DNA of 42,872 nucleotides from a virus: the IMG/VR virus record IMGVR_UViG_3300050821_001351, positions 1 to 42,872 of that record; one strand, given 5' to 3'. Position 1 is the first letter of the stretch; every line of letters begins with the position of its first letter. Below the pieces are notes generated by a model. It saw nothing but the letters and a program-made list of their open reading frames with translations. It was not told the DNA's origin and searched no databases. Below, piece after piece: positions 3,552 to 38,118 of the stretch. The position numbers were made by a program, and so were the translations under genes.

Positions 3552-3575
3552 GGGAGCGGCGTACTCGCCGCGACC
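3552..3575 (+). repeat. Dispersed tandem-GA hairpin, copy 1
   Basis: GGGA, stem GCGGCG (3556-3561), loop TACT, stem CGCCGC (3566-3571), GACC. The outer GG/CC can pair; between outer and inner stems lies a G-A/A-G tandem mismatch. Intergenic, just downstream of the promoter at 3509-3537. Confidence 0.7.
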
Positions 3576-3679
3576 TTAGTAAGCGTATGTAGCACGTACT
3601 AAACATTAGGAGTTTATAAATCAAAACATCACTATATAAATGGATTAAGTCTCAACTAAACATCTACGGCGAACTACAT

Positions 3680-3877
3680 TTGAATCAGACACAGGTCTCT
3701 GTGCTACTACTTGAGGTAACGGCAGACGAGTCGCTATTAGTCGACTTTGCACGTTACTTTCTACAGCACTGTGTAGAGACTCCTGCCGACGATCTTATTG
3801 ATTTGATTGATCGTAAGACTGCGCCCGCGCTTAGTCTAAACACGCCCGCGCTCACTACAGGAGGCGGGGACGCCTAA
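3680..3877 (+). CDS. Hypothetical small protein; start uncertain
   Basis: Read from TTG 3680 this is 65 residues, but the TTG has no ribosome site. The frame stays open and coding-like upstream to 3620, where an ATC codon sits 7 bases after AGGAG (3608-3612). The true start may therefore be a non-canonical or mutated ATG at 3620, giving 85 residues with a basic, aromatic N-terminus (SLYKWIKSQLNIYGEL). The body is acidic and helical (FARYFLQHC, DLIDLIDR). The last ~15 codons run into the GC-rich stretch. Function unknown. Confidence 0.5.
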   Translation: MNQTQVSVLLLEVTADESLLVDFARYFLQHCVETPADDLIDLIDRKTAPALSLNTPALTTGGGDA

Positions 3878-4110
3878 GCCGGGAACAAAGAGCGACCAAA
3901 GGGAAGGTTTCGCCCGCACGCGGCTCAGTGGAGCGCGGGAGCACGTGCTAAACACGGAGATACGGGAGCCGGGGAAGGGGGAGTGCCGAAGCCGGGGGCG
4001 GGGAGCTAACCATTCCCGCTGGCGCGGGAATTAGGACGGGGAAGGGGAAGGGGACACGCCCGCGACTGCCAGCTTGGCCCGCATACTCGCGGGCACCCCT
4101 TCGATAGCTA
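3878..4110. other. GC/G-rich gene-free island with G-quadruplex-like runs
   Basis: About 230 bases of strikingly GC-rich sequence in an otherwise balanced genome, with no open frame of note. On the plus strand, G-runs at 3963-4003 (GGG, GGGG, GGGGG, GGGGG, GGGG) and at 4026-4053 (GGG, then GGGG three times separated by AA) could form quadruplexes. Hairpins are ATTCCCGC/GCGGGAAT (4012-4019, 4024-4031) and GCCCGC/GCGGGC (4077-4082, 4089-4094). A palindrome AGCACGTGCT lies at 3940-3949. An origin, a packaging-associated site or acquired host DNA are all possible. Confidence 0.6.
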
Positions 4111-4293
4111 GATGCGTCCGCGTATATACAGTATTAACGCGCACATACGACGATTTACGCTAAATTGTTACATTCCTAGTTGACACAATTTGCAGTACTG
4201 TCTAAATGTTACACCAGCGAACACGCATCAACTACAAGTTAATAGCAACTGGGGCCGGCACGAATTGTGAATCGTGTCGTATAGGAGGTATTT
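4111..4293 (+). promoter_or_regulatory. Promoter and leader of the 4294 operon
   Basis: A consensus -35 TTGACA (4180-4185) is followed, 17 bases on, by a weak -10 TAAATG (4203-4208). The -10 sits in TACTGTCTAAA, which also appears in the leftward promoter at 1761-1774. The leader has a small hairpin CACGA/TCGTG near 4260-4277 and a strong ribosome site GGAGGTAT before ATG 4294. GAATCGTGTC in this leader recurs in the leader of the gene at 7405. Confidence 0.55.
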
Positions 4294-4536
4294 ATGAAGA
4301 AAGAAACTAAACAGATATTGGCCCGTGTTCTTGAGTTGACCAAAGAACTCGAAATTAGGAAGGCACTTTACGATGAGGTAAATATGCTAACCATGCAATT
4401 GCAAGCAGATGGTTTCGAGAATGCTGAGCTAAATGGATTTACCCTTGAGCTAGTGGATAACTTCAGTAAATCGAACGTGTCGTGGCGCGTGGCCGCTGTC
4501 CAACACTACGAAATAAAGATTAAAGCAGTTAAATAA
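4294..4536 (+). CDS. Hypothetical protein sharing its C-terminal tail with the next gene
   Basis: An 80-residue protein with a strong GGAGG ribosome site. The N-terminal half is Lys/Glu/Leu-rich and probably coiled-coil. The last ~17 residues, RVAAVQHYEIKIKAVK, closely match the tail of the following protein (RVAGVKHYEVKIKAAK). Stop and next start overlap as TAATG. The function is unknown, but the shared tail suggests a common binding partner or a past partial duplication. Confidence 0.8.
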   Translation: MKKETKQILARVLELTKELEIRKALYDEVNMLTMQLQADGFENAELNGFTLELVDNFSKSNVSWRVAAVQHYEIKIKAVK

Positions 4537-5111
4537 TGAACTTTATTTGTAGCGCGTGTCGCCAGCCTAAGCAACGCATTAGAACTGCTAGAAAGAATCC
4601 AGCTAATCGTAGTTGGGTCTATGTTGATGAGCACAACAGAGTATGGCGCCAAGCCCATTGTCCAGAATGTAAACGTGCTGATGATGTCATGCGCGGAAGG
4701 CGTAATGGCCGTAAATCAATAGATGATTGCACAGCTAAACATTTGATCAAAGGTCGTGAGGCTGAACATTTTGCAGCGTGGTGGTTAAAGGAAATTGGAT
4801 ATATAGACTTGCGATTAGGCAATAGCAAAGGCCCGGACATTATTGCTAGGCGTCCAGCAAATAAGTTTGAAACCTTCGAAGTTAAGTCAGTAGTTAAGCA
4901 ATCGGTTAGCGATGGATTATTTGTACACGCTATCGCACCGACCAGACGTAAAGATGATTACGTAATTTGTGTACATGAAGGAGATTGTATTATGTTTGCA
5001 ATGAAAGAACATCTTAAGGAATGTTGGAAACATGGAGCGCGCAACGTTACTAATTTATTCCGCGTCGCTGGCGTGAAACATTATGAAGTTAAGATTAAGG
5101 CGGCCAAATGA
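4536..5111 (+). CDS. PD-(D/E)XK nuclease-like protein with N-terminal zinc finger
   Basis: 191 residues. Two CxxC pairs (Cys5/8 and Cys42/45) form a likely zinc site. Residues 73-117 carry a restriction-endonuclease-like core: GREAE (73-77), then GPD (Asp101), then FEVK (Glu115, Lys117). This is the Glu...Asp...ExK order of PD-(D/E)XK metal-dependent nucleases. The C-terminal tail matches that of the upstream gene. It overlaps its neighbours as TAATG and ATGA. A role in cutting host DNA or resolving phage DNA is possible; the substrate cannot be inferred. Confidence 0.7.
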   Translation: MNFICSACRQPKQRIRTARKNPANRSWVYVDEHNRVWRQAHCPECKRADDVMRGRRNGRKSIDDCTAKHLIKGREAEHFAAWWLKEIGYIDLRLGNSKGPDIIARRPANKFETFEVKSVVKQSVSDGLFVHAIAPTRRKDDYVICVHEGDCIMFAMKEHLKECWKHGARNVTNLFRVAGVKHYEVKIKAAK

Positions 5112-5335
5112 GCGACACAGAAGTAACCTCACTAGTCTCATTGGGCATGAATGATAAGCACCTAGTATTGCGCAATGAGTTTCTACGTAAGCTACATTCC
5201 ATTATACAAGAGCAAGATATCAGAATGAAGTCCTATGCAATTGCTGAGGACTATAGTGGCTGTATGCAAGAGACTGTGTCTCTGACTACGCCGTCCTTTA
5301 GTATTCAGTTACAGGTAACTGCGAGGAACAAATGA
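5108..5335 (+). CDS. Hypothetical protein
   Basis: 75 residues, starting in an ATGA overlap with the nuclease gene and ending in an ATGA overlap with the next. Acidic, with no recognised motif. Confidence 0.75.
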   Translation: MSDTEVTSLVSLGMNDKHLVLRNEFLRKLHSIIQEQDIRMKSYAIAEDYSGCMQETVSLTTPSFSIQLQVTARNK

Positions 5336-5670
5336 CCAAAGCATTCACAACATTCGTATACCAAGGCGAGGTTAAGGTCACAGTAGCAATCGAGTGCAGA
5401 GATAGGTCAGGCTGCGATGCTGAGTACGACATTGAGTCAGTGGAGCTATTAGGTGGCATTAGTCCATTAGGACGTCCGGACCCCAACAAGGAGCTGGACT
5501 GGTCAGAGCTATCTGGTGAGGACCAGTTAAAGATTAATCGTAGGGCTGAGGAGTTTGCAGACGAGTGGGCTTGTGAGGCGTACCAAAGTTATGCAGAAGG
5601 CATGGCTGACCAAGCATATGACTCTTATAAGGACATGCAAATGGAGATGGCCAATGAAAAAGAAGCCTAA
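5332..5670 (+). CDS. Hypothetical acidic protein
   Basis: 112 residues. The N-terminal half is beta-rich (FTTFVYQGEVKVTVAIEC); the C-terminal half is an acidic helix rich in Glu, Asp, Ala and Tyr (AEEFADEWACEAYQSYAEG). It is translationally coupled to its neighbours and has no known family. The overall acidity could suit a DNA-mimic or an adaptor, which is speculation. Confidence 0.75.
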   Translation: MTKAFTTFVYQGEVKVTVAIECRDRSGCDAEYDIESVELLGGISPLGRPDPNKELDWSELSGEDQLKINRRAEEFADEWACEAYQSYAEGMADQAYDSYKDMQMEMANEKEA

Positions 5671-5830
5671 GGAACAGCTAATGGTCGTAGTAGTAACCCC
5701 GCGTGAACTGACAGAGGATGATGAATGCGACGCCTACGGCAAGGACGACCCTAAGCATCCGACATATACAGAGCGAATGCTGGATAATGCAGACTATGAG
5801 CGGAAGCGTAGACGCGAGGAAGGTAAATGA
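5654..5830 (+). CDS. Hypothetical small protein
   Basis: 58 residues starting at ATG 5654, with GGAG about 8 bases upstream. It overlaps the end of the previous gene by 17 bases. Both ends are charged (MKKKPKEQ... and KRRREEGK). It ends in an ATGA overlap with the next gene. Confidence 0.65.
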   Translation: MKKKPKEQLMVVVVTPRELTEDDECDAYGKDDPKHPTYTERMLDNADYERKRRREEGK

Positions 5831-6171
5831 GTGTGACTAACAATGGGAGCGGCGGTACTACGCCGCGACCTTTCACAGAGATTGGACCTAAGCACTTAAC
5901 ACCAGAGACTACTGAGAAGGTGTTGGCATACGAGCGGGTGATGTGTAGGCAGCTTCCAATCCACCACATAAAGATAATGCAAGAGATGTTTAGGGCATTG
6001 CTACGGATGGTGGAGTGCGACGCTCAACTAGCTCAACAGAGCGTAGACCATGCGCAGGTTAAATTCCTGCTTGGCGATATTAAGGGAATACTGGCCGGAG
6101 ACAATGGAACTATGCAGTCTACAACAGTACTTGCGCCTGTAGATTTAGTAACAACTAATAAGAAATGGTAG
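5827..6171 (+). CDS. Hypothetical protein carrying a hairpin element near its 5' end
   Basis: 114 residues starting in an ATGA overlap. Residues ~8-14 (SGGTTPR) are encoded by a copy of the dispersed hairpin (5845-5870), so the repeat has been accepted in frame. The rest is helical (QEMFRALLRMVECDAQLAQQ), with a Thr/Val-rich end. No family recognised. Confidence 0.75.
   Translation: MSVTNNGSGGTTPRPFTEIGPKHLTPETTEKVLAYERVMCRQLPIHHIKIMQEMFRALLRMVECDAQLAQQSVDHAQVKFLLGDIKGILAGDNGTMQSTTVLAPVDLVTTNKKW
5845..5870 (+). repeat. Dispersed tandem-GA hairpin, copy 2 (in a gene)
   Basis: GGGA, stem GCGGCG (5849-5854), loop GTACTA, stem CGCCGC (5861-5866), GACC. The flanks are identical to copy 1. It lies 18 bases downstream of the ATG of the 5827 gene. 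Confidence 0.7.
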
Positions 6172-6180
6172 GGGTTGAGT

Positions 6181-6549
6181 ATGCAAAATAATTTTAAACC
6201 TGAGACTTTGGAAAAGGTGGCTAGAGTAGCCGAACGTGTAAAGAATGGCGAATTAATTACGGCGGCCTGCAGAAGTGAAGGTATGCCACAATCTCAATTA
6301 CATGCCATGCGTATGGCTGGTAAGGTGCCTGCAATACTTAAGATCGGCAAGACTAAGCCTAAGCCTAAGCCTAAGCCCAAGGCTAAGAAGTCTAAGCCTA
6401 AGTTTGTAGACTTAGTTAATCCGCACACTGGTAGTGACGTAGCCGTACTAACTACGGGGAGCGCCGAAGGCGCGACCGCTGTAGGCAGCGTAGTCCTAGT
6501 TGTGTGCACACCAGACCAATTGAAGTATGTGATAGCGAGTTTACGATGA
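6181..6549 (+). CDS. IS66 TnpA-like DNA-binding protein
   Basis: 122 residues from ATG 6181, 6 bases after GGGG (a TTG at 6175 is less likely). Residues ~8-45 form a helix-turn-helix-like segment (VKNGELITAACRSEGM). A Lys-Pro repeat linker (about 58-74) follows, then a short beta/alpha domain ending TPDQLKYVIASLR. This order and the C-terminal LxxVIxxL pattern resemble IS66-family TnpA. The next gene overlaps as ATGA and resembles TnpB, as in IS66 operons. A hairpin repeat is embedded at 6457-6477 (residues GSAEGAT). A generic HTH regulator or terminase small subunit is the alternative. Confidence 0.5.
   Translation: MQNNFKPETLEKVARVAERVKNGELITAACRSEGMPQSQLHAMRMAGKVPAILKIGKTKPKPKPKPKAKKSKPKFVDLVNPHTGSDVAVLTTGSAEGATAVGSVVLVVCTPDQLKYVIASLR
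6457..6477 (+). repeat. Dispersed tandem-GA hairpin, copy 3 (diverged loop, in a gene)
   Basis: GGGA, stem GCGCC (6461-6465), loop GAA, stem GGCGC (6469-6473), GACC. It keeps the outer flanks of the family but has a shorter stem and has lost the TACT loop. It lies in frame inside the TnpA-like gene. Confidence 0.55.
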
Positions 6550-6860
6550 GAATAACTCGTGTGTACTTTGACATTGATATGCGCCAGTCCTTTGAGGGGC
6601 TGCGCGAGGTAGCCAAGAGCACTAAGGCTGAGATTGGTAATACGGCTCTAAATACCACCATCGTATTTATTAATACGAAACGTACCATGTTTAAGGTGTT
6701 GCAGAATAATACGTTAATTGTATTTTATAAGTCGCCGTCTGGACGTATACCAATTGATGTACTGGTGTACTTGCCACAGAACTTTGGTGGCAGTGATATG
6801 GAAATGAATGATGCTATACGGAAGTCGCTGTATGCGAAGTTGCAGGATAAGGGTAAGTGA
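6546..6860 (+). CDS. IS66 Orf2/TnpB-like protein
   Basis: 104 residues starting at the ATGA overlap. IS66 TnpB proteins (PF05717) carry DMRxxFDGL near the N-terminus, then FVFxxxRxxxxKLL and LxxxYKxLxxGR. Here DMRQSFEGL is at 11-19, IVFINTKRTMFKVL at 39-52 and LIVFYKSPSGR at 57-67. The length and position after a TnpA-like gene also fit. The usual WDG motif and the downstream transposase TnpC are missing, so this is not a complete insertion sequence. A domesticated pair is inferred; the family match is by eye. Confidence 0.55.
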   Translation: MRITRVYFDIDMRQSFEGLREVAKSTKAEIGNTALNTTIVFINTKRTMFKVLQNNTLIVFYKSPSGRIPIDVLVYLPQNFGGSDMEMNDAIRKSLYAKLQDKGK

Positions 6861-7085
6861 TTAAGTTTCCTTATCCTGGAGTGCATCCCACTGCTCACTC
6901 TTAGTAGCCTTATTAGCACGGTACTGAATGGCCTTTTTTAAAAACTCACGACGGGGGTTAGTTACGCTCCCGTCAATAGGCGAAGTAGTAAGGTTAGTAG
7001 GCTTACCAGCAGCACGCATTTGGTCAGCCATAGTCAAGGTATCTGCACCTTTAAGTCCACCGACTTCGCTACCGTGTCCTGCCAT
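6861..7085 (-). CDS. Hypothetical small protein, leftward
   Basis: 74 residues. ATG 7085 is preceded by AGGGGG. Its stop abuts the stop of the rightward gene at 6860 with no gap. The N-terminal half is Gly/Ala/Thr rich and the C-terminal half basic and helical (RREFLKKAIQYRANKA). It could be a small virion or regulatory protein; no family is recognised. Confidence 0.65.
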   Translation of the reverse strand: MAGHGSEVGGLKGADTLTMADQMRAAGKPTNLTTSPIDGSVTNPRREFLKKAIQYRANKATKSEQWDALQDKET

Positions 7086-7404
7086 ATTATGCCCCCTAGT
7101 ATTAATCTAGTATGCACTAATTTAAACACTGCGCAAGTCCTGTACATGGCGAGGTGCGTACTCGCACCGAGCTATAGGTAAGCTATGTAACTTCAACGTT
7201 GACAGAAAATGTAACATTATTAGAGTATGTGCTTGAACGTAAGATGTGGAAACTGAGTTGCGAACAGACTTCGGGTGGATGCCCAAGTAGCTGCTGGCTC
7301 TAGAACACATACTCAGCAAGAGTAAACTTGTGCACACTCGACTGCTGGGGGCACTATAGTCGGAATCGTGTCCGGCCCGTTCACTAACACTAACAGGAGG
7401 AACT
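7086..7404. promoter_or_regulatory. Divergent control region with promoter and hairpin
   Basis: This 319-base gap separates the leftward 6861-7085 gene from the long rightward operon. It holds a hairpin repeat at 7149-7172 and a rightward promoter TTGACA (7199-7204), 16 bases, TAGAGT (7221-7226). A small stem CGGA/TCCG surrounds ATCGTG in the leader, and GGAGGA precedes ATG 7405. The word GAATCGTGTC is shared with the leader of the gene at 4294. I see no gene in it. Confidence 0.55.
7149..7172 (+). repeat. Dispersed tandem-GA hairpin, copy 4
   Basis: GCGA, stem GGTGCG (7153-7158), loop TACT, stem CGCACC (7163-7168), GAGC. Both the inner stem and the outer pair (GC/GC instead of GG/CC) differ from copy 1 yet remain complementary. 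The helix extends outward through G48-U73, T47-A74 and A46-T75 (last two digits of 71xx). Confidence 0.7.
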
Positions 7405-7617
7405 ATGAAACTAAAACTATTCCAGGTCGTAACTCTGTTACATCCTAAGTTAAATAAGGATGGCGAGTCTGATGAGGAGATTACAATTATCAGTGATGGT
7501 ATTGAAACATTGCTGGCTGCTGACGATAAGCAGGCTGGTTTGCTAGCTGCTCGCAAAATATCGGAAGCAGATATTAAGAATCTATCTCGCATTGAAGTAA
7601 TCGTGCGGCCTTTTTAG
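7405..7617 (+). CDS. Hypothetical small protein, first of the long rightward operon
   Basis: 70 residues with a strong AGGAGG ribosome site and a consensus-like promoter upstream. The layout is beta then alpha (MKLKLFQVVTLLH..., then an Ala/Leu helix). It resembles small phage proteins with a single beta-alpha-beta fold, but no family is recognised. Confidence 0.75.
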   Translation: MKLKLFQVVTLLHPKLNKDGESDEEITIISDGIETLLAADDKQAGLLAARKISEADIKNLSRIEVIVRPF

Positions 7618-7619
7618 TA

Positions 7620-7808
7620 GTGCCGATGCCTTTATTGCAAACTGATTTGGCTGCGGCGGCACGGTTAGTAAATTCTGGAATTATGGGTAGTGCATTAGGA
7701 GCAATGGGTGGTGGCGCTGGAATGGTTGGGAGTACTAATACATTTACTTTAAGTAACAACGCCTCGATGTCTAATTCATTTAATGCAGCACAATTGCTGC
7801 AAAGGTAG
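7620..7808 (+). CDS. Hypothetical Gly/Ala/Met/Asn-rich protein
   Basis: 62 residues from GTG 7620, or 60 from ATG 7626. There is no strong ribosome site, so coupling to the upstream stop is likely. The low-complexity middle (GSALGAMGGGAGMVGS) resembles the composition of the ejection proteins in the late operon. Function unknown. Confidence 0.6.
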   Translation: MPMPLLQTDLAAAARLVNSGIMGSALGAMGGGAGMVGSTNTFTLSNNASMSNSFNAAQLLQR

Positions 7809-7811
7809 TAT

Positions 7812-8171
7812 ATGAGCGATAAACGAGACCATGATTTTATAAAATTCAATACCCAGATTGGTGTAGATGCTACGGTTCAACGTAAGACTGTTAGCAAAGA
7901 AATTGCCAGTGAGCCAAATAGAGTACTAGCTAAGTTAGGATTAGCCTGTCATCCCGCTCCGTTAAGTGAGGGTACACAGTACATGGGGAGTGCCGCCGTA
8001 CACATCTATTGGCATGAACCATTGGCACAGATATTCTTTGTGAGCCAAGTTGATGGGTTGAATATGTACAAGTGCCCAGAGGCTCTGGCCAGCAAAGGAA
8101 TGGATGACCTGCGCACAGCTATGAAAGTGCTATTCGACCGTAGGCCCGGTCGTTTACGTTCGGGGTTCTAA
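7812..8171 (+). CDS. Hypothetical protein
   Basis: 119 residues in a stop-start overlapping run. It has a compact alpha/beta look with aromatic patches (AAVHIYWHEPLAQIFFVS) and a basic tail (RRPGRLRSGF). The 3' end contains a perfect hairpin CGACCG/CGGTCG at 8136-8153. No family is recognised. Confidence 0.75.
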   Translation: MSDKRDHDFIKFNTQIGVDATVQRKTVSKEIASEPNRVLAKLGLACHPAPLSEGTQYMGSAAVHIYWHEPLAQIFFVSQVDGLNMYKCPEALASKGMDDLRTAMKVLFDRRPGRLRSGF

Positions 8172-8347
8172 TGATATTATTCTGTGCAGAACTAAATGAG
8201 ATTCTAGTATTGGTTGGACTATGCTACGACGGCAAAGACCTTGACTGTAGGTACTGTATGAGTGCCGATGAGTTTGGTTATCCAAGATATTCAAACATTA
8301 ATGATTTACAAGACAATTATGAATGGACTTTCGTTGGGCATTTATGA
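8171..8347 (+). CDS. Hypothetical small protein
   Basis: 58 residues, starting in a TAATG overlap and ending in an ATGA overlap with the next gene, which supports translation. Cys-rich for its size (LCYDGKDLDCRYCM), so a small metal site is possible. Confidence 0.65.
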   Translation: MILFCAELNEILVLVGLCYDGKDLDCRYCMSADEFGYPRYSNINDLQDNYEWTFVGHL

Positions 8348-8921: not shown

Positions 8922-9097
8922 TTTGTATAGGCTGTAAACGGCATATGTCTAGCGACACTAGGACTGGTCTATGCAAGGACTGTAGAACTGTTAAATGCTC
9001 ATATGATGGCTGTGACAAGATCATAGTATGGCAATTGACTCCGCAAGGGTTTTGTAATGCGCATGGAAAATATAAGAAGAAGGTGTATGGTGAATGA
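8918..9097 (+). CDS. Double zinc-ribbon small protein
   Basis: 59 residues starting at a GTG that overlaps the previous stop (GTGA) and ending in an ATGA overlap with the HNH gene. Cysteines and histidine are placed as CxxC (3/6), CxxC (19/22), CxxxxC (27/32) and CxxH (46/49), so two metal sites are likely. This could be a nucleic-acid or protein adaptor. Confidence 0.65.
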   Translation: MICIGCKRHMSSDTRTGLCKDCRTVKCSYDGCDKIIVWQLTPQGFCNAHGKYKKKVYGE

Positions 9098-9627
9098 CAA
9101 TCCAATCTAAGTTAGCCGAACGATGGTTGCCAATAAAAGGGTTCGGAGGTTTTTATGAAATATCTGATTTTGGCAATGTTCGCTCTTATGCTAGATCAGG
9201 AAGGCAGTTTTTGCGCAATGGTAGCCGAGGTCGGTGCGCGACTCCTAAGAACTTAAAGCCCAAAAAAAATCCTTGTGGGTATAGAATTGTTAGCCTTGGG
9301 TCTGGCAAAGGAATTGCCAAGACGTGTCTAATTCACAGGTTAGTCCTTGAAGCCTTTATAGGTCCTTCTCCAAAAGGATTTGTTTGCGCTCACCTAAATG
9401 GTGACCCGTGGGATGCACGATTGGCTAACTTAAAATGGGTAACATATGCAGAAAATGATAGTCACAAAGATTTGCACGGAACTAGATTCACTAAACTTAC
9501 GGCTCTCTCTGTAAAAGAGATTCGCTCCTCGCAACAAATTGGCACCAGAGAATTGTCGCTAAAATACGGCGTTTCTATGTCAACGATTTATTGCATTTTA
9601 AAGAAAGAAACATGGAAACGCCTATAA
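9094..9627 (+). CDS. HNH homing endonuclease (NUMOD4-HNH)
   Basis: 177 residues. Residues 10-32 (ERWLPIKGFGGFYEISDFGN) are a NUMOD4 DNA-binding motif. An HNH_3-type nuclease core follows: HRLVLEAFIG at 81-90, His100 in CAHLNGDP, then ANLKWVTYAEN to 121. The C-terminus is a helix-turn-helix (VKEIRSSQQIGTRELSLKYG) close to that of the HNH gene at 13305. It is free-standing, not inside an intron or intein that I can see, and overlaps the upstream gene as ATGA. Confidence 0.9.
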   Translation: MTIQSKLAERWLPIKGFGGFYEISDFGNVRSYARSGRQFLRNGSRGRCATPKNLKPKKNPCGYRIVSLGSGKGIAKTCLIHRLVLEAFIGPSPKGFVCAHLNGDPWDARLANLKWVTYAENDSHKDLHGTRFTKLTALSVKEIRSSQQIGTRELSLKYGVSMSTIYCILKKETWKRL

Positions 9628-11225: not shown

Positions 11226-11430
11226 TTGGTGCGAACGTAGATTAATAGCTGACGACCCATACCAATACGAGGATTACACGGTAGATCAACTAGCTGAATG
11301 GGCAAGACGGCGACCTACCTCACAGAAAGTCCTAATCAATGAGATATTAAAGAGACTGCTTGACCCGAACCTATCAACAGATGATCGTGAAATACTCTCT
11401 AAGGCTCTATATGTGCAGAGTAAGAAATGA
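11209..11430 (+). CDS. Hypothetical protein
   Basis: 73 residues. Tryptophan-rich N-terminus (NWWSDWCERR) followed by helical segments (LAEWARRRP; INEILKRLLD). ATGA overlap with the phosphatase gene downstream. Confidence 0.7.
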   Translation: MNWWSDWCERRLIADDPYQYEDYTVDQLAEWARRRPTSQKVLINEILKRLLDPNLSTDDREILSKALYVQSKK

Positions 11431-11885
11431 GTATACAAATGATTTTAGTAGACACTGTTAATGGTAACAAGTTGTATCGGGGTCCTAGGCCAGCGGTACA
11501 AGGTGATTTGCTTGGTATTAATACAGACATTAACCTTGAGACAGGATGGTTTGAGTTCCTGCATGGTGAGTGTAAGGAAGAGATGGGCTGGTGCAAGGCT
11601 CTTAATGTGACCTACCTGTTTAGACCACAGTCGGACATTACGCCGCCATCGCTATTTACACTTAAGAATATTGTAGATCAGATTAATATCTCGGTAAAAG
11701 CAGGTAATGTACTTGTACATTGCCTGCACGGTGAGGACCGAACGGGTATGGTTATGGCGGCATACCGTATGATTATGCAGAACTGGTCCTTTGAGAAAGC
11801 TAAGACAGAAATGCTCGGATATGGCTTCCATACCTTTCCATATGGCTGGTGGATTAATACTCTGCAAGGATTAGATAAGTCCTAA
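11427..11885 (+). CDS. Tyrosine/dual-specificity protein phosphatase
   Basis: 152 residues. The signature HCLHGEDRTG (98-107) is the HCx5R phosphate-binding loop, with nucleophile Cys99 and Arg105, preceded by a beta strand (NVLVHC). The helix after it (MVMAAYRMIMQNWS) fits the family. Phosphatases of this class hydrolyse phospho-Tyr/Ser/Thr; small members also act on nucleotides or RNA 5' ends. A plausible but unproven role is altering host signalling or defence. Coupled by ATGA upstream and TAATG downstream. Confidence 0.85.
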   Translation: MSIQMILVDTVNGNKLYRGPRPAVQGDLLGINTDINLETGWFEFLHGECKEEMGWCKALNVTYLFRPQSDITPPSLFTLKNIVDQINISVKAGNVLVHCLHGEDRTGMVMAAYRMIMQNWSFEKAKTEMLGYGFHTFPYGWWINTLQGLDKS

Positions 11886-12103: not shown

Positions 12104-12107
12104 CACT

Positions 12108-12119: not shown

Positions 12120-12130
12120 GGGGGTATTTA

Positions 12131-12271: not shown

Positions 12272-12289
12272 CTAGTAGTGGGGGATATA

Positions 12290-13303: not shown

Positions 13304-13304
13304 T

Positions 13305-13811
13305 ATGTTCAAAGGACTATCGCAGCAGACTGTAACGAAAAAACCTGGCTCATTACGCAGGCCACTTGCGGAAAGATTTTGGGAAAAGATTAATAAACTT
13401 GACGAATGTTGGGAATGGACCGGCTCGCTGACTAAGTCAGGATATGGCAAAATTAGCCTTGGCGGACGCGCTTCCAAATTTGAGGATACTCATCGTGTCG
13501 CATGGAGGCTTACGCATGGGGAAATAGCTGTTGGACTATGTGTTTGCCACAAGTGCGACAACAAAAAATGCGTTAACCCAGATCATCTTTTTCTGGGAAC
13601 ACAAAAAGAAAATATAGCTGATATGGTTAGAAAGGGTCGCGCTAATAAAAGAAAAGGCACTAAGGTACATACTTGTAAATTAAACGAAGAGCTGGTTAGA
13701 GAGATAAGGGCTAGCGACCTGTCAAATACTGAGCTCGCAAATAAATATGGTGTGCGCCAACCAACAATTTGTAACATTCGCAATTATAAATATTGGAAGC
13801 ATGTTAAATGA
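13305..13811 (+). CDS. HNH homing endonuclease
   Basis: 168 residues. CWEWTGSLTKSGYGKI (35-50) and CHKCDNKKCVNPDHLFLG (81-98) form a typical HNH_3 nuclease with two zinc-binding pairs, followed by QKENIADMVRKGR. The C-terminal helix-turn-helix (EIRASDLSNTELANKYGV) parallels the 9094 gene. It sits between the two glycosyltransferase-like genes and starts one base after the upstream stop. Confidence 0.9.
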   Translation: MFKGLSQQTVTKKPGSLRRPLAERFWEKINKLDECWEWTGSLTKSGYGKISLGGRASKFEDTHRVAWRLTHGEIAVGLCVCHKCDNKKCVNPDHLFLGTQKENIADMVRKGRANKRKGTKVHTCKLNEELVREIRASDLSNTELANKYGVRQPTICNIRNYKYWKHVK

Positions 13812-14038: not shown

Positions 14039-14196
14039 TGGATGCCGTTAAGCAGGGTCTTCTATATGGAGTAATAGCAGGCTGTAGCGTAGCTAGTTTC
14101 GTAGCTGTAATATCCGTCATGTACCTCACCATACAATTAATTGATCGCATCTCTGGGGGAGACAACTTTGAGCACGACCGTAGCAAGCCAGAATAA
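14035..14196 (+). CDS. Small single-span membrane protein
   Basis: 53 residues from ATG 14035 (or the ATG at 14038). One hydrophobic span at about 9-36, then a charged tail (RISGGDNFEHDRSKPE). The last 29 bases overlap the start of the GT9-like gene in another frame. Paired with the preceding two-span protein; holin, spanin or anti-host roles are possible. Confidence 0.6.
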   Translation: MMDAVKQGLLYGVIAGCSVASFVAVISVMYLTIQLIDRISGGDNFEHDRSKPE

Positions 14197-15253
14197 ACAA
14201 GTTACGTTTGAACAGGTAAAGACTGAATATTTTCCTGAATGGTGCTTTAGGCCAAAAACTATAATGGCCCCATTCCGTATGAACTTTATATTCCTTAACG
14301 GCGGCATGGGCGATTACGCGGCGTGGCAAAGAAGTATAGAATGGCTGTGTGAGAAGGCGACTTGGATACACGGCGCGTTAATTGTGCCTACATATTTTGT
14401 CGAGTTTGCAGAACACTTCATTGGTAAACATAAGCATTGGACCGTATGTGACTATAAAAGTCTAGAACAAATACCAAAGGTAAATGAGCTACCGTTTCGT
14501 GGCCCAGTTGAGTTGCAACGCGAATCATTGAATGCTACCGGAGCACATCTAGCAACTTGTGGCTGGGTTTACTTTACAAACAAAGAAAAAGCGCCACCTG
14601 GTTACGAATACTATTCTCAGTTCGAACAGTCATATTTAGATGGGATGGAATTACCAGATGAGGCTAAGGGATTAGAACAAGGTAAATACGCAATATTTAC
14701 AACAGGGATGACTACCGATAGCCGTAAAGTTCCACCGGGTGGATGGGTTCCCATTATCCAGCATGTTATTGATAAGGGATTGACGCCTGTATTCTTAGGC
14801 AAGGATACAATGATTACTGGCAATGCACTTAACATTCACACTAGTTTCGACCCATCAATTGACTTCACTAAAGGTATTGACCTGCGTAATAAAACTTCAA
14901 TGTTACAGGCGGCATCCATCATGAGTCGTGCTGCCTTTGTAATTGGTCACGACAACGGCTTACTCCATTTAGCTGGATGCACTGAAGTACCAATTATTTT
15001 CGGATATAACATCGCGCTCCCCGAACACCGAGAACCATTGCGCAAGGTTAAGAAAACCTATAACGTGGTTTTAAATCAAAAAGAATTGGCCTGTTATGGA
15101 TGTCAAAGTGAATTTAACTTTTTGATAAACTTTAACTTCCGCAAGTGCCTGTACGATGATCTTGCGTGTATGTCTAAGTTGTTTAGTAATGGTGGGGATA
15201 AATGGAAACAAAAGATAGATCTAGTTTTAGCAGGAAAACCGGACGTTCGCTAG
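14168..15253 (+). CDS. Glycosyltransferase family 9-like protein
   Basis: 361 residues from TTG 14168, chosen because GGGGGAG lies 6 bases upstream. NFIFLNGGMGDYAAW (39-53) is the N-terminal loop of GT-B enzymes. FVIGHDNGLLHLAGC (257-271) is the donor-binding motif of heptosyltransferase-type GT9 proteins. Four C-terminal cysteines (CYGC near 315, then two more) may bind metal. Roles could be modification of phage DNA, virion or host surface sugars. The HNH gene at 15202 overlaps its 3' end by 52 bases. Confidence 0.7.
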   Translation: MSTTVASQNKQVTFEQVKTEYFPEWCFRPKTIMAPFRMNFIFLNGGMGDYAAWQRSIEWLCEKATWIHGALIVPTYFVEFAEHFIGKHKHWTVCDYKSLEQIPKVNELPFRGPVELQRESLNATGAHLATCGWVYFTNKEKAPPGYEYYSQFEQSYLDGMELPDEAKGLEQGKYAIFTTGMTTDSRKVPPGGWVPIIQHVIDKGLTPVFLGKDTMITGNALNIHTSFDPSIDFTKGIDLRNKTSMLQAASIMSRAAFVIGHDNGLLHLAGCTEVPIIFGYNIALPEHREPLRKVKKTYNVVLNQKELACYGCQSEFNFLINFNFRKCLYDDLACMSKLFSNGGDKWKQKIDLVLAGKPDVR

Positions 15254-15735
15254 AAGAAAAGTTCTTTGAGCGCGTAAAGAGCCGCCCAGCTAATAAATGC
15301 CATGAATGGCAAGGTGCCTTCTATTTAAATGGCTATGGCTGTATCTGGTGGAAGTTTGGTAAAGAGCGCAAGAAAATAGGTGCTCATCAAGCCGCATGGA
15401 TTTTAGAGAATGGTCCAATACCAAAACGTAAAGTGCGAATATGTGTTTGCCACAAGTGCGACAACCGCTCATGTGTTAATCCAAAACACCTTTTCCTAGG
15501 TACAAACAAAGAAAACACTCAAGACTGCATACGCAAAGGCCGTATGACTGGGCCCCCAATTAAGCCGAACTGTCCTTTAGGGCATCGCAAAGAACTTCGC
15601 AATGGAGTGATGGTCTGTCGTCCATGTGAATATTTACGCAGTGTCATTCGTAAATCTGACCCTGAGTATAGAAAGCAACGAATAATCTGGGCAAAACGTA
15701 GAAAGCAGGAGCGATGCGCGAAATCCATGAATTAG
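15202..15735 (+). CDS. HNH endonuclease with C-terminal zinc ribbon
   Basis: 177 residues. CHEWQGAFYLNGYG (33-46) and CHKCDNRSCVNPKHLFLG (83-100) form the HNH_3 core, then NKENTQDCIRKGR. Unlike the other two HNH proteins, the C-terminus is CPLGH...CRPCEY, a zinc ribbon, followed by a very basic helix. It starts inside the 3' end of the GT9-like gene (52-base overlap), an unusual position that suggests insertion with replacement of the host gene's end. Confidence 0.88.
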   Translation: METKDRSSFSRKTGRSLEEKFFERVKSRPANKCHEWQGAFYLNGYGCIWWKFGKERKKIGAHQAAWILENGPIPKRKVRICVCHKCDNRSCVNPKHLFLGTNKENTQDCIRKGRMTGPPIKPNCPLGHRKELRNGVMVCRPCEYLRSVIRKSDPEYRKQRIIWAKRRKQERCAKSMN

Positions 15736-15917
15736 CAGATAGTGAACTCGTAAACTCGGCCCTAGATTTGTTTTACGATCTTAATGACAAGAGCCAACAG
15801 AGCAAATTGAAGGCTCAGGAAAACATGGACAAGCTTGGTGATATCTTGCAGGAATTGCATGAGCGCCTGAATATCAGGCCGGTACTTAAACCGCACCAGA
15901 GATTAATGGTCCCGTAG
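15714..15917 (+). CDS. Hypothetical helical protein
   Basis: 67 residues, AGGAG 3-4 bases before ATG 15714. It overlaps the HNH gene by 22 bases and, convergently, the endolysin 3' end by 32 bases. Sequence is helical (QENMDKLGDILQELHERLN). No family. Confidence 0.65.
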   Translation: MREIHELADSELVNSALDLFYDLNDKSQQSKLKAQENMDKLGDILQELHERLNIRPVLKPHQRLMVP

Positions 15918-16512
15918 CTAGTTCCTTAAGCTGGTCTAGCGTTCCATTAAACAAGTTATTATCTGTGCCAGTGCCATTCCATTGCCAGAATTCCCATGAA
16001 TGCCATGGGAGCGGTACGAGTGGGCACTTAGGTCCGTAGTGAGCTACCCATAATCCAAAGCGCATAAACTGTGGGTCTAGAGCCAATGCAGTTAAGAAAT
16101 AGGGACCACCGTAAATCAATGGCGTCTTACCAGTTAATGCCTCAACGGAGTGTAGAAACTGTAATCCATTCTCACGGTCTAACTGAGTTGCAGTACCATC
16201 TGTAACCTCCCAGTCCATTACACAAGGCAAGTCCTCTGGACCTAACTTCCCAACCTTGTCTGCAAAGGTACGGGCCTGTTCCAATGGATTAACTGCTGCT
16301 CTAAAGAAGTGATAGGCTCCAGTAATAAGCCCGGCTTTCTTAGCATTAGGCCAGTGGCTATCAAACGAGATATCAGTACCCACACCTTCGCTAGCCTTTA
16401 TAAAGCAGAACGCATTACCGGCTGCCTTGAGACCTGTAAAATCAACGGTAGGTTGCCAGTGCGAAATATCAAATCCCTTAATTGTAGTTCCAGTTGCGCA
16501 TACTGTAATCAT
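15886..16512 (-). CDS. Endolysin, GH25 lysozyme (muramidase)
   Basis: 208 residues from ATG 16512, with AAAGGTGG upstream; a longer reading to 16584 is unsupported. GFDISHWQ (13-20), FIKASEG (37-43), GAYHFF (65-70) and CVMDWEV (97-103, catalytic Asp100/Glu102) are the ordered GH25 motifs. It cleaves the MurNAc-GlcNAc bond of peptidoglycan. There is no signal peptide or cell-wall-binding repeat, so export needs a holin. It is the last gene of a leftward cassette and overlaps the lipoprotein gene as ATGA. Confidence 0.93.
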   Translation of the reverse strand: MITVCATGTTIKGFDISHWQPTVDFTGLKAAGNAFCFIKASEGVGTDISFDSHWPNAKKAGLITGAYHFFRAAVNPLEQARTFADKVGKLGPEDLPCVMDWEVTDGTATQLDRENGLQFLHSVEALTGKTPLIYGGPYFLTALALDPQFMRFGLWVAHYGPKCPLVPLPWHSWEFWQWNGTGTDNNLFNGTLDQLKELATGPLISGAV

Positions 16513-16880
16513 GGTGCCACCTTTATAGCTGCGATGTTTGCAAAGAGTGTGTTGAGTGCTGCCTTCGTATTGTAGGAGCAACAATTACATACACTACACA
16601 ATTGTTCTATGGCAATTTTATAGTCTCCAAATGAGGAGACTGAAGTGCAAATTAATGGCTGCGTAAGTAGTAAGTGCTGCCATTGTGCAGGCGTAAGGTC
16701 TACAGTTGTAACTGCTGCCAGCGTGTGAAATTCTGCTGCGCCAACTGCTCCCTTATTTCCATATATAATCTGATCTGTGATTGTGACTTTGTTACAGGAA
16801 CTAAGGACTAGCACTGCCATCGTAATTAATGAGACCAGCATAGGCACTATCAAGAGCTGTAGATGCTGCGCTGATTGCAT
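16509..16880 (-). CDS. Phage lipoprotein (possible outer spanin)
   Basis: Read from ATG 16880 (GGAG upstream) it has 123 residues; ATG 16841 is an alternative start. A hydrophobic stretch ends in the lipobox LSSC (Cys29), predicting cleavage and lipidation. The mature part has four or five cysteines, including CSVCNCC. Its place directly before the endolysin suits an outer-membrane spanin subunit, but the proline-rich o-spanin look is absent, so this is tentative. It overlaps the upstream gene by 80 bases. Confidence 0.65.
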   Translation of the reverse strand: MQSAQHLQLLIVPMLVSLITMAVLVLSSCNKVTITDQIIYGNKGAVGAAEFHTLAAVTTVDLTPAQWQHLLLTQPLICTSVSSFGDYKIAIEQLCSVCNCCSYNTKAALNTLFANIAAIKVAP

Positions 16881-29653: not shown

Positions 29654-29662
29654 CTAATCCCC

Positions 29663-34547: not shown

Positions 34548-34562
34548 TTAGAAATCCCCCGT

Positions 34563-34578
34563 GCTGGGAGTGCCCAGC
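34563..34578. terminator. Intergenic hairpin before the connector gene
   Basis: GCTGGG/CCCAGC with a 4-base loop, just upstream of the GGGGGA ribosome site of the 34547 gene. It could attenuate or protect the late transcript. It has no U-run. Confidence 0.35.
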
Positions 34579-34590
34579 TATCCAATCATA

Positions 34591-34929
34591 CTAGTACTTA
34601 TCCGCAGCATTCATGTAGCTTACCATTACTACTTGGCTATTAGCCGTGGCATCAAAGTAGATGTTAGCTACGGTTACAAGACCACCCCCTGGTCCACCCT
34701 CTAAGGATGTGGGCATTGCATTGATGCTAAAGCCTACGCCAGCAGGCAAACAAGCTGCGTAATTACCAAGACTTACTGTTGCATTTCCTACGAAAATAGA
34801 ACCACTGTTTGTGTTTAGTCCCTCAAGATACAAGCTAGAGACGTAGGCCGCTGTAATCTGAGTAGACAGGGCTACACGCGTTCCAGCAGTAGAAACTGTG
34901 ACTTGAGCTGTGATTGGTGCAATCCCCAT
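34591..34929 (-). CDS. Small virion protein candidate
   Basis: 112 residues, AGGAG upstream of ATG 34929. Thr/Val/Ala-rich beta sequence (ITAQVTVSTAGTRVALSTQI) resembling small head or fibre accessory proteins. No cysteine motif or membrane span. Confidence 0.7.
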   Translation of the reverse strand: MGIAPITAQVTVSTAGTRVALSTQITAAYVSSLYLEGLNTNSGSIFVGNATVSLGNYAACLPAGVGFSINAMPTSLEGGPGGGLVTVANIYFDATANSQVVMVSYMNAADKY

Positions 34930-34937
34930 ACTATCTC

Positions 34938-35708
34938 CTATACCAGTTGGTTTGGCGGGCCCAGTGCCGGGCGTCCACGTATTGTTAAGCCTGTACCGCC
35001 TACTGAATTAGCTACCTGTACAAATGCTGTACGCGCAGAACCATTAAGACCTGTACCACTGGTTAATGCTATTGTAGATGGAGTCATAATGGTATTCCAC
35101 ATTACAAACTCATTAAGGTAAAGCTGCGTTGTACTTTGACCAAATAAGTTTTGTGCTCCAAGAACTAATAATGAGCCGAGTGTAGGATTAATGGCGATTC
35201 GAGCAGCCCCGGTACTTGCTGTTGAAATTGCTGTATTATCCCGCCAAGTCAGAAAATTATTAGTAGTCTGTGAAAAATCACAGGTCCAGAAAAAATCATA
35301 GAACTGATTTTGTGCAGCAGCTACTGTCTGGTTCTGAGTTATTAATGTGTTACCAGCATTATCTAGACCAGTAAATGGGACCACGCCAGCCCCTCCCCAT
35401 CTAGCCTCATTGCCAAGCGCATTACAGGGCATTCCAAAGTAAAAGAATTGAGCTGCGCTTGCCGTATTAGACATTGCGCATCTCATTAGTACTGAGTACT
35501 GCTGTGTCGCTGGTAGATTTAAATGTCCATTGTAGGACAGCATGTGCTGCCCTAGCGCACCTTGGTCTAGATTAATATAAGAGCCACCAATTACACCAGC
35601 GGCTGTAGATGAGGTGATGGATACTGTGCCTATAGATGTAGGAGATGGAAATCCACCAGCAAAGTATGCTGTCGTACTAGTCCCTCTGACAGCGAATACT
35701 ATGCTCAT
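34938..35708 (-). CDS. Lectin-like (LamG/concanavalin fold) virion protein
   Basis: 256 residues. A jelly-roll pattern ends in LYLNEFVMWNTIMTPSTIAL (near 205-224), the typical closing strand of LamG/concanavalin-like domains. Aromatic strands (FFYFGMPCNALGNEARWGG, FYDFFWTCDF) precede it. It probably binds surface glycans or decorates the capsid. The start has no strong ribosome site and may depend on coupling to the upstream gene. Confidence 0.6.
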   Translation of the reverse strand: MSIVFAVRGTSTTAYFAGGFPSPTSIGTVSITSSTAAGVIGGSYINLDQGALGQHMLSYNGHLNLPATQQYSVLMRCAMSNTASAAQFFYFGMPCNALGNEARWGGAGVVPFTGLDNAGNTLITQNQTVAAAQNQFYDFFWTCDFSQTTNNFLTWRDNTAISTASTGAARIAINPTLGSLLVLGAQNLFGQSTTQLYLNEFVMWNTIMTPSTIALTSGTGLNGSARTAFVQVANSVGGTGLTIRGRPALGPPNQLV

Positions 35709-35711
35709 GGT

Positions 35712-36194
35712 TTAGTTGCCCTTACGTAATTGTGGTTCTGCCTTGTACTGTGGTTTTGCTTCTACATAGGCTTGTGCTAATGGTGCTGGCGCAGGCTTAG
35801 TTTCCTTAGGAGCCTGCTCAGCTTTAATGGCTGCAAGTTCTGCCTTAAGCCTAGCAGTCTCCTCGCGCTCATTCTCAAGCTGGTACATCAATGCCTCATC
35901 ACCAGTCAGTTCTGGTTTAAATTCCTTATGAGGTACCGTATAGTCAAAGGATTTGGTAAGAACTGTGCCTTTAGCAGAATATGTTTTTTCAACGCGACCT
36001 GCAGGCTGATTATCCTCAGTCCATAGATTACCTGAATTAATTGGGCGCTCAATGTAGCGATTTCCATCGCGTACATACTCAACGTAGAGTTGTGTCTTAA
36101 TAAGACGACCTTGCGAGTCCCAAATATGGGTACGCCGGTCAAACTTGTTCCCATCCATTTCCTGATCAATCATATTCTTAGCTTGTGCTGCCAT
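35712..36194 (-). CDS. Hypothetical late protein with C-terminal coiled coil
   Basis: 160 residues with AGGAGG upstream. The first ~100 residues are polar beta-like (YVEYVRDGNRYIERPINSGN). A Glu/Ala/Lys coiled coil (YQLENEREETARLKAELAAI) and a Pro/Lys/Ala-rich tail follow. Possibly an assembly or accessory head protein. Confidence 0.7.
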   Translation of the reverse strand: MAAQAKNMIDQEMDGNKFDRRTHIWDSQGRLIKTQLYVEYVRDGNRYIERPINSGNLWTEDNQPAGRVEKTYSAKGTVLTKSFDYTVPHKEFKPELTGDEALMYQLENEREETARLKAELAAIKAEQAPKETKPAPAPLAQAYVEAKPQYKAEPQLRKGN

Positions 36195-36203
36195 TTAATC
36201 CTC

Positions 36204-36578
36204 CTACCAGCCTGCTACTAAAACGCGCAAGGTGGTTGAGGCTACGGTAGCAGCAGTAGTCATCTCAATCAATGAGGTAGTGGTACTGGCTCCAGTAGTA
36301 TTCTGTGTTAGGTAGATGCGAATAGTATTCGCCAGTTGGTCCCACTTAGGGACATAGCCAGAGCTGGATGCTGCATCCTCAATAATGAACTTTCGTAGAG
36401 TGGCTGGTATACCTAACTTTCCAATGGAAAGTGGAATGCCGCCGCTCGTATACAGTACGTTAGTGCTGTTGGGGAAGGCTACCAAGAACTGATGTTCCTT
36501 CATGGGAACACTAGGGCTCGCAATAGAAGTACCTTCTACAACTGTATAGGTCACGTCCGCTGTTCCAAGTTGTGGCAT
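36204..36578 (-). CDS. Small virion protein candidate
   Basis: 124 residues, GGAGG upstream of ATG 36578. Thr/Ala/Ser-rich beta protein (TTSLIEMTTAATVASTTLRV). Located three genes after the scaffold; likely a head decoration or completion protein. The hairpin repeat at 36597-36622 lies in its leader. Confidence 0.7.
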   Translation of the reverse strand: MPQLGTADVTYTVVEGTSIASPSVPMKEHQFLVAFPNSTNVLYTSGGIPLSIGKLGIPATLRKFIIEDAASSSGYVPKWDQLANTIRIYLTQNTTGASTTTSLIEMTTAATVASTTLRVLVAGW

Positions 36579-36596
36579 AGATCAATCCTCCATACA

Positions 36597-36622
36597 GTTC
36601 GGCGCGGTACTCCGCGCCTCAC
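36597..36622 (-). repeat. Dispersed tandem-GA hairpin, copy 5
   Basis: Read on the minus strand: GTGA, stem GGCGCGG, loop AGTA, stem CCGCGCC, GAAC (inner stem 36601-36607 and 36612-36618). The second outer pair is U-A here, replacing G-C or C-G of other copies. It lies between two small virion genes just after the capsid gene. Confidence 0.7.
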
Positions 36623-36630
36623 AATGCTAA

Positions 36631-37095
36631 TTAAGCAGTAACAAGAATAACAGTAGTCGCAGTCTCATTGGCTACAACCTCAGGAGACAGCGTTCCGTAG
36701 TATCCAAAGTATCCGGCTCCAGCAGGAGTACCACCCTGTCCACCCTGAGTCTTGATTCCAATTTGAAGTTGGCAACCAACTGGAATAAGTGTTGGAGTGC
36801 AGGTATTCCAAAATACAGAACCAGCCGTTGCACCATTAGGGATAGTCATAGTACAGATCGCCGCCGTAGTAGGAGTTGCATTCTGCAATCCCTTTACTAC
36901 GTTTGCTACTAATACAGCAGACGTCAGGTTATTAACTGCAGTTGCAACTTTAAAACTTAAGCGCTGCATAACGAATGGTACGTGAGCTGTGTATACGCCA
37001 AATACACAAGCTGCTGATGTGATGACTTGTGAAGTGTAGGCAAAAGAACCTTCCGGTACAATACCGCCTACTGTAATCTCTTGTGCATATGCCAT
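36631..37095 (-). CDS. Small virion protein candidate next to capsid
   Basis: 154 residues, AGGAG upstream of ATG 37095. Val/Thr/Ala/Gly-rich beta sequence (ALVANVVKGLQNATPTTAAI; GGQGGTPAGAGYFGYYG). Directly after the major capsid gene, so a decoration or cement protein is a fair guess. Confidence 0.7.
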   Translation of the reverse strand: MAYAQEITVGGIVPEGSFAYTSQVITSAACVFGVYTAHVPFVMQRLSFKVATAVNNLTSAVLVANVVKGLQNATPTTAAICTMTIPNGATAGSVFWNTCTPTLIPVGCQLQIGIKTQGGQGGTPAGAGYFGYYGTLSPEVVANETATTVILVTA

Positions 37096-37123
37096 GTTTA
37101 AACTCCTATTAAATAACTAATGT

Positions 37124-38074
37124 TTATGTCGAACTGATATGGATAACTCGGGCCTCGCCATCGTTGGCGCTATCCTTCCAAATCTGATCAAAGCCATAGA
37201 TGCCGTACCATGCAACACCCTTACTGCGACCATAGTCAGCAGATTCCTTAGCACGCAGTTCAGGGTCCATTACTGAAGCCATTGCAATCGGGTCATCACC
37301 AAAGAATACTGCTTCTCCAAGTACGCTTCCTGTACCGAGCGAACCCGATAGCGCATTGGTGTTGTTCGATTCGATAAAGCGGACGCCTTCAATACGGCCA
37401 ATCTCACCTTTAAATTTGGCTTCGGGGTCTGCATATGTTTTCCACTTTTCCCAGTTCGGGTCACGAATGATGGAGCGGCGTCCTTTGGTAGATACCAAGC
37501 ACATGTAGTCATCACCTTCGTAAGGCATCATGTGGTAGGTGGTGTACATCTGGTCGCGCACTTGCTCAATATGATATACGTTCAAGTTTACAGAGGCTGC
37601 TTCGCCAGCAGTACCGTTAGTGTAGAACGTAATGGATGCGATACCATCGGGTACACCAACTACTTGGCCAACTTTGAATGCCGTAGCACACAATTGGTCA
37701 AGGCGGAGTGCCAACTGGTCACGCAATTTGCGTTGAATCGCGTTTTCAATGTCAAAGTAAGATAGGTCCTTGGTGAGGGAGGTGTAAGGAATCGCACGTC
37801 CGCGCTCCGTTACAGAGATAGCTTGAGTCGAGAGAGAGAACGTGTCCTCAGGGATACGCTCTAACTCAACCAACGAGTCGTCACTAGGTACCGCTACGTT
37901 AGAGACGCGGGTAATGGTGACGTTAGAGCCCTGTTTGGACCCGTAGCCTTCAACAGGCTTAGAGAACTGCATGAACTTAGTCATTGAAATAGATGCGAAA
38001 CGAATCTCACTAGAAATTGCATGATTCTGGTATACGCCAGAAGGTGCGTTGTATGCCCATGACTGAGTTGCCAT
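37124..38074 (-). CDS. Major capsid protein, N4-gp56-like
   Basis: 316 residues, GGGGGAG upstream of ATG 38074. The sequence follows the N4-gp56 capsid family: an N-terminal arm, TERGRAIPYTSLTKDLSYFD (88-107), a spine helix (IQRKLRDQLALRLDQLCATA), then CLVSTKGRRSIIRDPNWEKW (187-206) and GRIEGVRFIESNNT. It is an HK97-fold shell protein. It follows the scaffold gene, as expected. Confidence 0.9.
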   Translation of the reverse strand: MATQSWAYNAPSGVYQNHAISSEIRFASISMTKFMQFSKPVEGYGSKQGSNVTITRVSNVAVPSDDSLVELERIPEDTFSLSTQAISVTERGRAIPYTSLTKDLSYFDIENAIQRKLRDQLALRLDQLCATAFKVGQVVGVPDGIASITFYTNGTAGEAASVNLNVYHIEQVRDQMYTTYHMMPYEGDDYMCLVSTKGRRSIIRDPNWEKWKTYADPEAKFKGEIGRIEGVRFIESNNTNALSGSLGTGSVLGEAVFFGDDPIAMASVMDPELRAKESADYGRSKGVAWYGIYGFDQIWKDSANDGEARVIHISST

Positions 38075-38094
38075 TATTTACTCCCCCTTGAGTA

Positions 38095-38118
38095 GGTCGG
38101 CGCGAGTACGCACCTCCC
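38095..38118 (-). repeat. Dispersed tandem-GA hairpin, copy 6
   Basis: Read on the minus strand: GGGA, stem GGTGCG, loop TACT, stem CGCGCC, GACC. One stem pair is a G-U wobble on this strand and would be an A-C mismatch on the other, pointing to the late transcript as the folded molecule. It lies between scaffold and capsid genes. Confidence 0.7.

Follow-up and report, generated by a model that had tools for sequence, protein, structure and literature searches.

What are the six short hairpins scattered through IMGVR_UViG_3300050821_001351, an IMG/VR virus record that we analyzed over its full 42,872 bases (the window) and whose gene content is that of a tailed phage? Each carries the dinucleotide GA on both sides of its stem. 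The original prediction gave six sequences whose coordinates and strands proved exactly right, took as its lead a phage RNA element bound by one factor, and kept a host-derived repeat resembling repetitive extragenic palindromes (REPs) as its fallback. It is the fallback that is best supported. The hairpins are probably host-type palindromes of the GTGG/GA class of REPs (5'-GTRG-GA-stem-loop-stem-GA-3') that were captured by the phage lineage, the tag having decayed and the structure having been retained.

The set was delimited by scanning for GC-rich, perfectly paired stems of ≥5 bp with loops of 3–6 nucleotides, the outer pairs and the loop sequence being left free. The window contains 28 such stems, five of which are flanked by GA/GA, or six when copy 6, with its one G·U pair, is included. 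Among 60 first-order Markov shuffles, the mean number of GA/GA-flanked stems is 0.17 and the maximum is 1. The repeats are 21–26 nucleotides in length (Table 1), GA is present on both sides of the stem in every copy, and each of the 12 outer pairs is Watson-Crick, which was not a requirement of the scan. The second outer pair changes among G-C, C-G and U-A, as had been claimed. The loop had been read correctly as TACT or AGTA, with GAA in the 6457 copy, but the copy at 5845 is better drawn with a 6-bp stem and a GTACTA loop. Similarly, the inner stems do differ yet remain complementary, but this covariation by itself says nothing about a family, since covariation is a property of every set of hairpins. 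What marks the family is instead the combination of GA/GA, the outer pairs and a loop common to five of the six copies. Copy 3 is the weakest of the set, with a 5-bp stem, its GAA loop and a score of 23.8 bits under a covariance model built from the six phage copies (the phage model), versus 30–38 bits for the others; taken alone, it could be a chance hairpin.

Table 1. Positions, strands and layouts of the hairpins and of associated features in the window. E values and ranks for copies 1–6 refer to a covariance model built from bacterial REPs only.
Feature	Position	Strand	Layout	Remarks
Copy 1	3550..3575	+	GTGG-GA-GCGGCG-TACT-CGCCGC-GA-CC	Intact GTGG tag; noncoding 3344-4293 region
Copy 2	5845..5870	+	(ATGG)-GA-GCGGCG-GTACTA-CGCCGC-GA-CC	E=0.006
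Copy 3	6457..6477	+	GG-GA-GCGCC-GAA-GGCGC-GA-CC	E=0.37, rank 4
Copy 4	7149..7172	+	(ATGG)C-GA-GGTGCG-TACT-CGCACC-GA-GC	Rank 6
Copy 5	36597..36622	-	GT-GA-GGCGCGG-AGTA-CCGCGCC-GA-AC	Rank 7
Copy 6	38095..38118	-	GG-GA-GGTGCG-TACT-CGCGCC-GA-CC	One G·U pair; E=0.12, rank 3
Major capsid protein gene	37124..38074	-		phrog_1357, E=4e-14; 3' of copy 6; query for finding related phages
Possible diverged relative	157..174	-	TGTCGCG-TACT-CGCGACA	Same loop, no GA/GA; phage model E=1.8

Four of the six hairpins lie between genes, and two lie in frame inside predicted genes, as originally described. Copy 2 is located just 3' of the start codon of the open reading frame (ORF) at 5827-6171, where it encodes NGSGGTTPR, and copy 3 encodes GSAEGAT within ORF 6175-6549; intragenic REPs are also on record (PMC3733652). 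Copy 4 is flanked by the divergent ORFs 6861-7085 (minus strand) and 7405-7617 (plus strand). Copies 5 and 6 each follow a stop codon and precede the ribosome-binding site of the next gene, ending ∼6 nucleotides from that site and 18–20 nucleotides before the start codon. For copy 5, the stop codon belongs to ORF 36631-37095 and the ribosome-binding site to ORF 36204-36578; copy 6 is ∼20 nucleotides 5' of the major capsid protein start codon. For all six copies, the GA strand is the sense strand of the transcription unit.

An analogy to kink-type RNA motifs had been proposed, and tandem sheared G·A pairs are indeed predicted in both. However, the phage hairpins have a symmetric internal loop with pairs closing both sides, and their predicted folds lack a 3-nucleotide bulge; the motif is therefore a tandem-GA internal loop and not a kink-turn. 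None of the copies has the trailing T-run of an intrinsic terminator, and terminator-like sites number none at 36400-38400 and one, not at a copy, at 3300-7500. No known RNA family was matched in Rfam, and a literature search for tandem-GA phage RNA hairpins found nothing. A promoter role was considered and rejected. The sequence GTATGC is located upstream at an equal distance in the 3552 and 38095 copies and is absent at the other copies. The sequence GGGAG recalls T7-type initiation; sites for sigma-70 are lacking at 36400-38400 and occur at shuffle-level counts at 3300-7500.

The relationship to bacterial REPs is most apparent with a second covariance model (the REP-only model), which was built from 24 host REPs with the GTGG-GA-stem-loop-stem-GA layout and includes no phage copy. 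This model recovers all six hairpins in the window, at ranks 1, 2, 3, 4, 6 and 7. Taken singly, copies 1 and 2 are the only significant matches, and for copies 4–6 the agreement in rank outweighs the individual scores as evidence. Copy 1 (E=2.8e-6) matches the host REP consensus at 25 of 26 bases, differing by one loop base, and the stems of copies 1–3 match the host REP stems GCGGCG and GCGCCG.

Conversely, the phage model detects REP families in bacteria. The genomes of Verrucomicrobiia bin 23R, Lamprocystis, Thiocystis and Thiohalocapsa each have 28–126 copies at E values up to 1, and Methyloversatilis has at least 67 copies, many as inverted doublets, whereas random genome samples (Pseudomonadota and other groups) yield isolated matches only, near zero. 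The suggestion that similar palindromes occur in Verrucomicrobia was sound, since a Verrucomicrobiia genome carries a multicopy GA/GA family (see also PMC3733652 on Opitutus terrae). An exact-pattern scan of bacterial genomes gives many chance matches in GC-rich genes, plus dispersed TGTGGGAGCGGCG-TCCC-CGCCGCGACC families. Within the host families the GTGG tag is nearly invariant, and alternative complementary stems occur that include GCGGCG and GCGCCG. Genes of the Y1_Tnp type, expected if REP-associated tyrosine transposases (RAYTs) accompany the repeat, are present in four of the five REP-bearing genomes, and one in Thiohalocapsa lies amid four REPs. The phage itself encodes no Y1 transposase (RAYT-type, Y1_Tnp).

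The layout is also that of previously described repeats. RAYT-linked REPs of P. putida (TGTGGGAGCGGGC..GCCCGCGAA) and X. campestris (GTAGGAGCGCGCTCGCGCGCGA) have the same plan (Nunvar 2010, PMC2817692), and in GTAG-1 REPs an unpaired dinucleotide separates the tag from the stem (Di Nocera 2013, PMC3733652). Like the phage hairpins, the RAYT-linked REPs of Pseudomonas and Xanthomonas follow the order tag-GA-stem-loop-stem-GA, with a stem of ∼6 bp, G·U pairs, alternative complementary stems and a short loop common within a family. Copies 4 and 5 resemble variants from P. fluorescens in which an extra C or T separates GTGG from GA, and may derive from REP variants of this kind instead of by tag decay. 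For paired REPs that form larger hairpins (REPINs), RAYTs spread the hairpins in trans and single REPs have been described as decayed remnants, which fits the loss of the tag in the phage (Bertels and Rainey 2011, PMC3116915).

Several observations weigh against assigning the hairpins to REPs. The exact GTGG tag that would place a hairpin among GTRG REPs is found only in copy 1 (3550-3553), with ATGG, CGGG, ATGG+C, ATTG+T and AAGG at the five other tag positions; most families in Pseudomonas and Xanthomonas have GTAG/GTGG in >90% of members, versus one of six here. Because the tag fails in five of the six copies, we call the set REP-like and file copy 1 alone as a REP. Known REPs are chromosomal, and mobile ones are usually inverted doublets (REPINs), whereas all phage copies are single hairpins with nearest neighbors >500 bp apart. 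The differing stems imply that the six copies did not arise in one recent burst. GTGG-class REPs of Verrucomicrobiia bin 23R, Chromatiaceae and Methyloversatilis have TCCC, TCCT, CCT or CCC loops rather than TACT and number from tens to >100 copies, and their strand relative to genes shows no bias (42:39 and 6:6 in a crude count). The REP genomes studied in detail were initially selected with a pattern derived from copies 1 and 2, and their family sizes are not unbiased. A TACT-loop REP was found in none of the ∼1,200 bacterial genomes searched. A donor search by pattern and with the phage model, covering Verrucomicrobiota, Pseudomonadota, Chromatiales, the order of Methyloversatilis and the phylum of CSMAG_2321, gave isolated single matches only, except for non-TACT REP families in Chromatiales. 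Finally, the tag fixes the outer positions in host REPs, where pairing fails in 11 of 48 cells and a compensated change never occurs, whereas the outer pairs of the phage hairpins always form, as G-C, C-G or T-A. With six sequences, this compensation is suggestive but not proof of selection on structure and not on a transposase site, as if constraint had shifted from the tag sequence to the helix.

Searches with the capsid protein identified 24 related phage loci, the closer ones having 47–88% identity over this protein, and one relative is a 42.7-kb contig with the same gene order as the window. The phage model finds no clear copy in the 24 loci (best score 16.9 bits), and the best match of the REP-only model in related phages has an E value of 0.26. 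At the 36597 site, the upstream gene of the relatives ends at the matching codon and is followed directly by a ribosome-binding site, such that the stop-to-start distance is 9–18 nucleotides, compared with 52 nucleotides in the window. The relatives thus have an empty site, and copy 5 was therefore either inserted or lost several times. Because the related viruses lack them, the hairpins were probably acquired from a host. For copies 1–4, no relatives of the early genes that could provide empty sites were found in IMG/VR with the two proteins tried.

The leader of the capsid gene likewise has a GA/GA hairpin in the window and none in the relatives, several of which have unrelated hairpins there. 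Stable examples (z below −2) occur upstream of the capsid gene in L127, L128, L171 and L173, whereas others have none; this is suggestive, as if a hairpin of any sequence would serve at this position. The hairpin GGTGCGTACTCTCGACGCACC of the closest capsid relative (L125, 11483-11503) has GGTGCGTACTC in common with copies 4 and 6 and no GA/GA.

REP-class hairpins are not restricted to this phage. When viral contigs were scanned for tagged REPs, 16 stretches in 11 contigs were identified; their viral status is the IMG/VR classification, and structural genes were checked in two contig groups. Six tagged copies are located on a 61.7-kb contig that encodes an internal virion protein, and a relative ∼70% identical to this contig has two copies at other sites, with occupied and empty sites in both directions in the alignment. 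Three tagged REPs are present on a third contig, which has portal and capsid genes. Like our window, IMGVR_UViG_3300037524_000495, 3300037458_000140 and 3300017527_000830 have several dispersed REP-class hairpins, phage structural genes and positions specific to each relative; unlike it, they have intact tags, TCCC/TCC loops and copies on either strand with respect to genes. Tagged REPs at L250 5299-5324 and L253 4501-4526 occupy non-orthologous sites in ∼70% identical relatives from another phage group, and the L250 copy directly precedes the ribosome-binding site and start codon of a gene to which it is antisense. The presence of tagged REPs in independent viral contigs indicates that phages acquired hairpins of this class more than once.

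Among annotated phage genomes, REP-class hairpins seem rare. The host-type consensus gives weak partial matches only, and the Pseudomonas consensus occurs in 3 of 50,697 records, namely DVM-2008, which is a P. fluorescens record with a Mu-like tail gene, and two unannotated fecal contigs. A search of other phages for the TACT-loop form with the pattern GAGNNGCGTACTCGCNNCGA gave eight viral stretches, mostly without complementary stems. We found no report of REPs in phages in the open-access literature, most subscription papers being outside the search.

How might such hairpins have entered the phage? Host origin, enzyme, single-copy route and RNA function, if any, are all inferred steps. Most likely, single REP hairpins would have been inserted in one-off events while the phage was inside a REP-bearing host. 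Insertion could have been carried out in trans by a host RAYT (HUH/Y1) acting on single-stranded phage DNA at replication forks, or could have occurred by template switching. Afterwards, the tag needed for further mobility would have decayed in five of the six copies, with the stem, the GA/GA internal loop and the outer pairs persisting. Tag decay and the lack of doublets imply that most copies are now immobile. Good pairing and the location of sense-strand copies by ribosome-binding sites suggest that the hairpins are either tolerated or put to use at the RNA level between genes, perhaps as a boundary for mRNA decay or translation at the ribosome-binding sites near the capsid gene.

The strongest alternative to capture, although we judge it unlikely, is that the hairpins are an RNA element of the phage's own, in which one protein, of the phage or the host, binds the tandem-GA hairpin with its UACU/AGUA loop and thereby controls the decay or translation of early, capsid and next-gene transcripts, the resemblance to REPs being convergent. 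The location of all six copies on the sense strand, when host REPs have no strand bias, agrees with this proposal, as do the proximity of copies 5 and 6 to start codons and ribosome-binding sites, the compensated changes in the outer pairs and the unrelated leader hairpins of relatives (L127, L128, L171 and L173). With six copies, however, the strand bias has a two-sided p of only ∼0.03. Moreover, it cannot separate RNA-level from DNA-level causes, because transcription follows the presumed direction of the fork, as judged by GC skew, in both arms. Two copies are inside genes, and for copies 1 and 2 the match to the host REP consensus extends beyond the plan to the sequence itself. Conservation also fails to support an element bound by one factor, since no copy is present in the related loci searched. 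The original prediction had itself named related phages that keep a locus without its stem as evidence against such an element, which is precisely the situation at 36597.

It is doubtful, but compatible with capture, that the phage went on to domesticate the captured REP hairpins as a small RNA regulon in which a host or phage protein reads the hairpin. In that case the transposase tag would have been given up, compensating changes would maintain GA/GA and the outer helix, and sense-strand copies would serve at the ribosome-binding sites of the capsid gene and neighboring genes. Far less probable is a DNA-level signal, whereby extrusion or exposure of the hairpin strand at forks would contribute to replication or to assembly of the primosome. 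The cumulative GC skew reaches a minimum at ∼3–4 kb and a maximum at ∼23 kb. The noncoding region at 3344-4293, which holds copy 1, coincides with the minimum and is a possible replication origin placed by GC skew only. All copies are within ∼7.2 kb of the junction of the record ends and point away from this candidate origin. Nonetheless, the full-length relative with the same gene order lacks the copies, and the same orientation would result if HUH transposases preferentially inserted into the lagging-strand template. Least probable of all is chance, whereby unrelated GC-rich hairpins are GA-flanked by accident and inner-stem covariation is a by-product of picking hairpins: at 0.17 such hairpins expected per genome it could reach copy 3 alone, and for the set it is refuted by the shuffles, the retained outer pairs, the common loop and the REP-only model.

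The surroundings of the hairpins have some additional features. The large terminase, portal and major capsid genes are on the minus strand at 37–42.8 kb, and recombination and primase genes (Sak4-like, RusA and DUF3987 primase-like) are on the plus strand. The region at 3344-4293 comprises 950 bases that are largely noncoding and partly very G-rich, and its RNA fold is better than those of 20 shuffles (z −2.4). GC-rich hairpins at 157-174 and 4077-4094 have TACT/AGTA-containing loops without GA/GA and are perhaps diverged members of the set. Three genes of the HNH homing-endonuclease type, one with NUMOD4, are located at 9094-9627, 13305-13811 and 15202-15735, and the latter two have a 79-nucleotide stretch in common at 80% identity. 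Genes at 11427-11885, 14141-15253 and 15886-16584 correspond to a dual-specificity phosphatase-like protein, a glycosyltransferase of family 9 (heptosyltransferase-like) and a GH25 lysozyme, respectively.

The phage hairpins are thus unusual, yet they are a variant of the known REP repeat rather than a new type of repeat. Their peculiarities are a tag in one copy only, both outer pairs kept with compensation, and the location of all six copies on the coding strand. REPs and their RAYTs have been described as vertically inherited residents of chromosomes, and transfer of REPINs between cells was judged unlikely because RAYT genes had not been seen on plasmids (PMC8049555). Phages may offer such repeats a route from host to host, as suggested by REP-class hairpins at lineage-specific sites in this phage and in other viral contigs. 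The small genomes of these phages also allow capture, tag decay and possible reuse as RNA elements to be traced one site at a time. If the hairpins have indeed been domesticated, then phages would both carry REPs between bacteria and use them.

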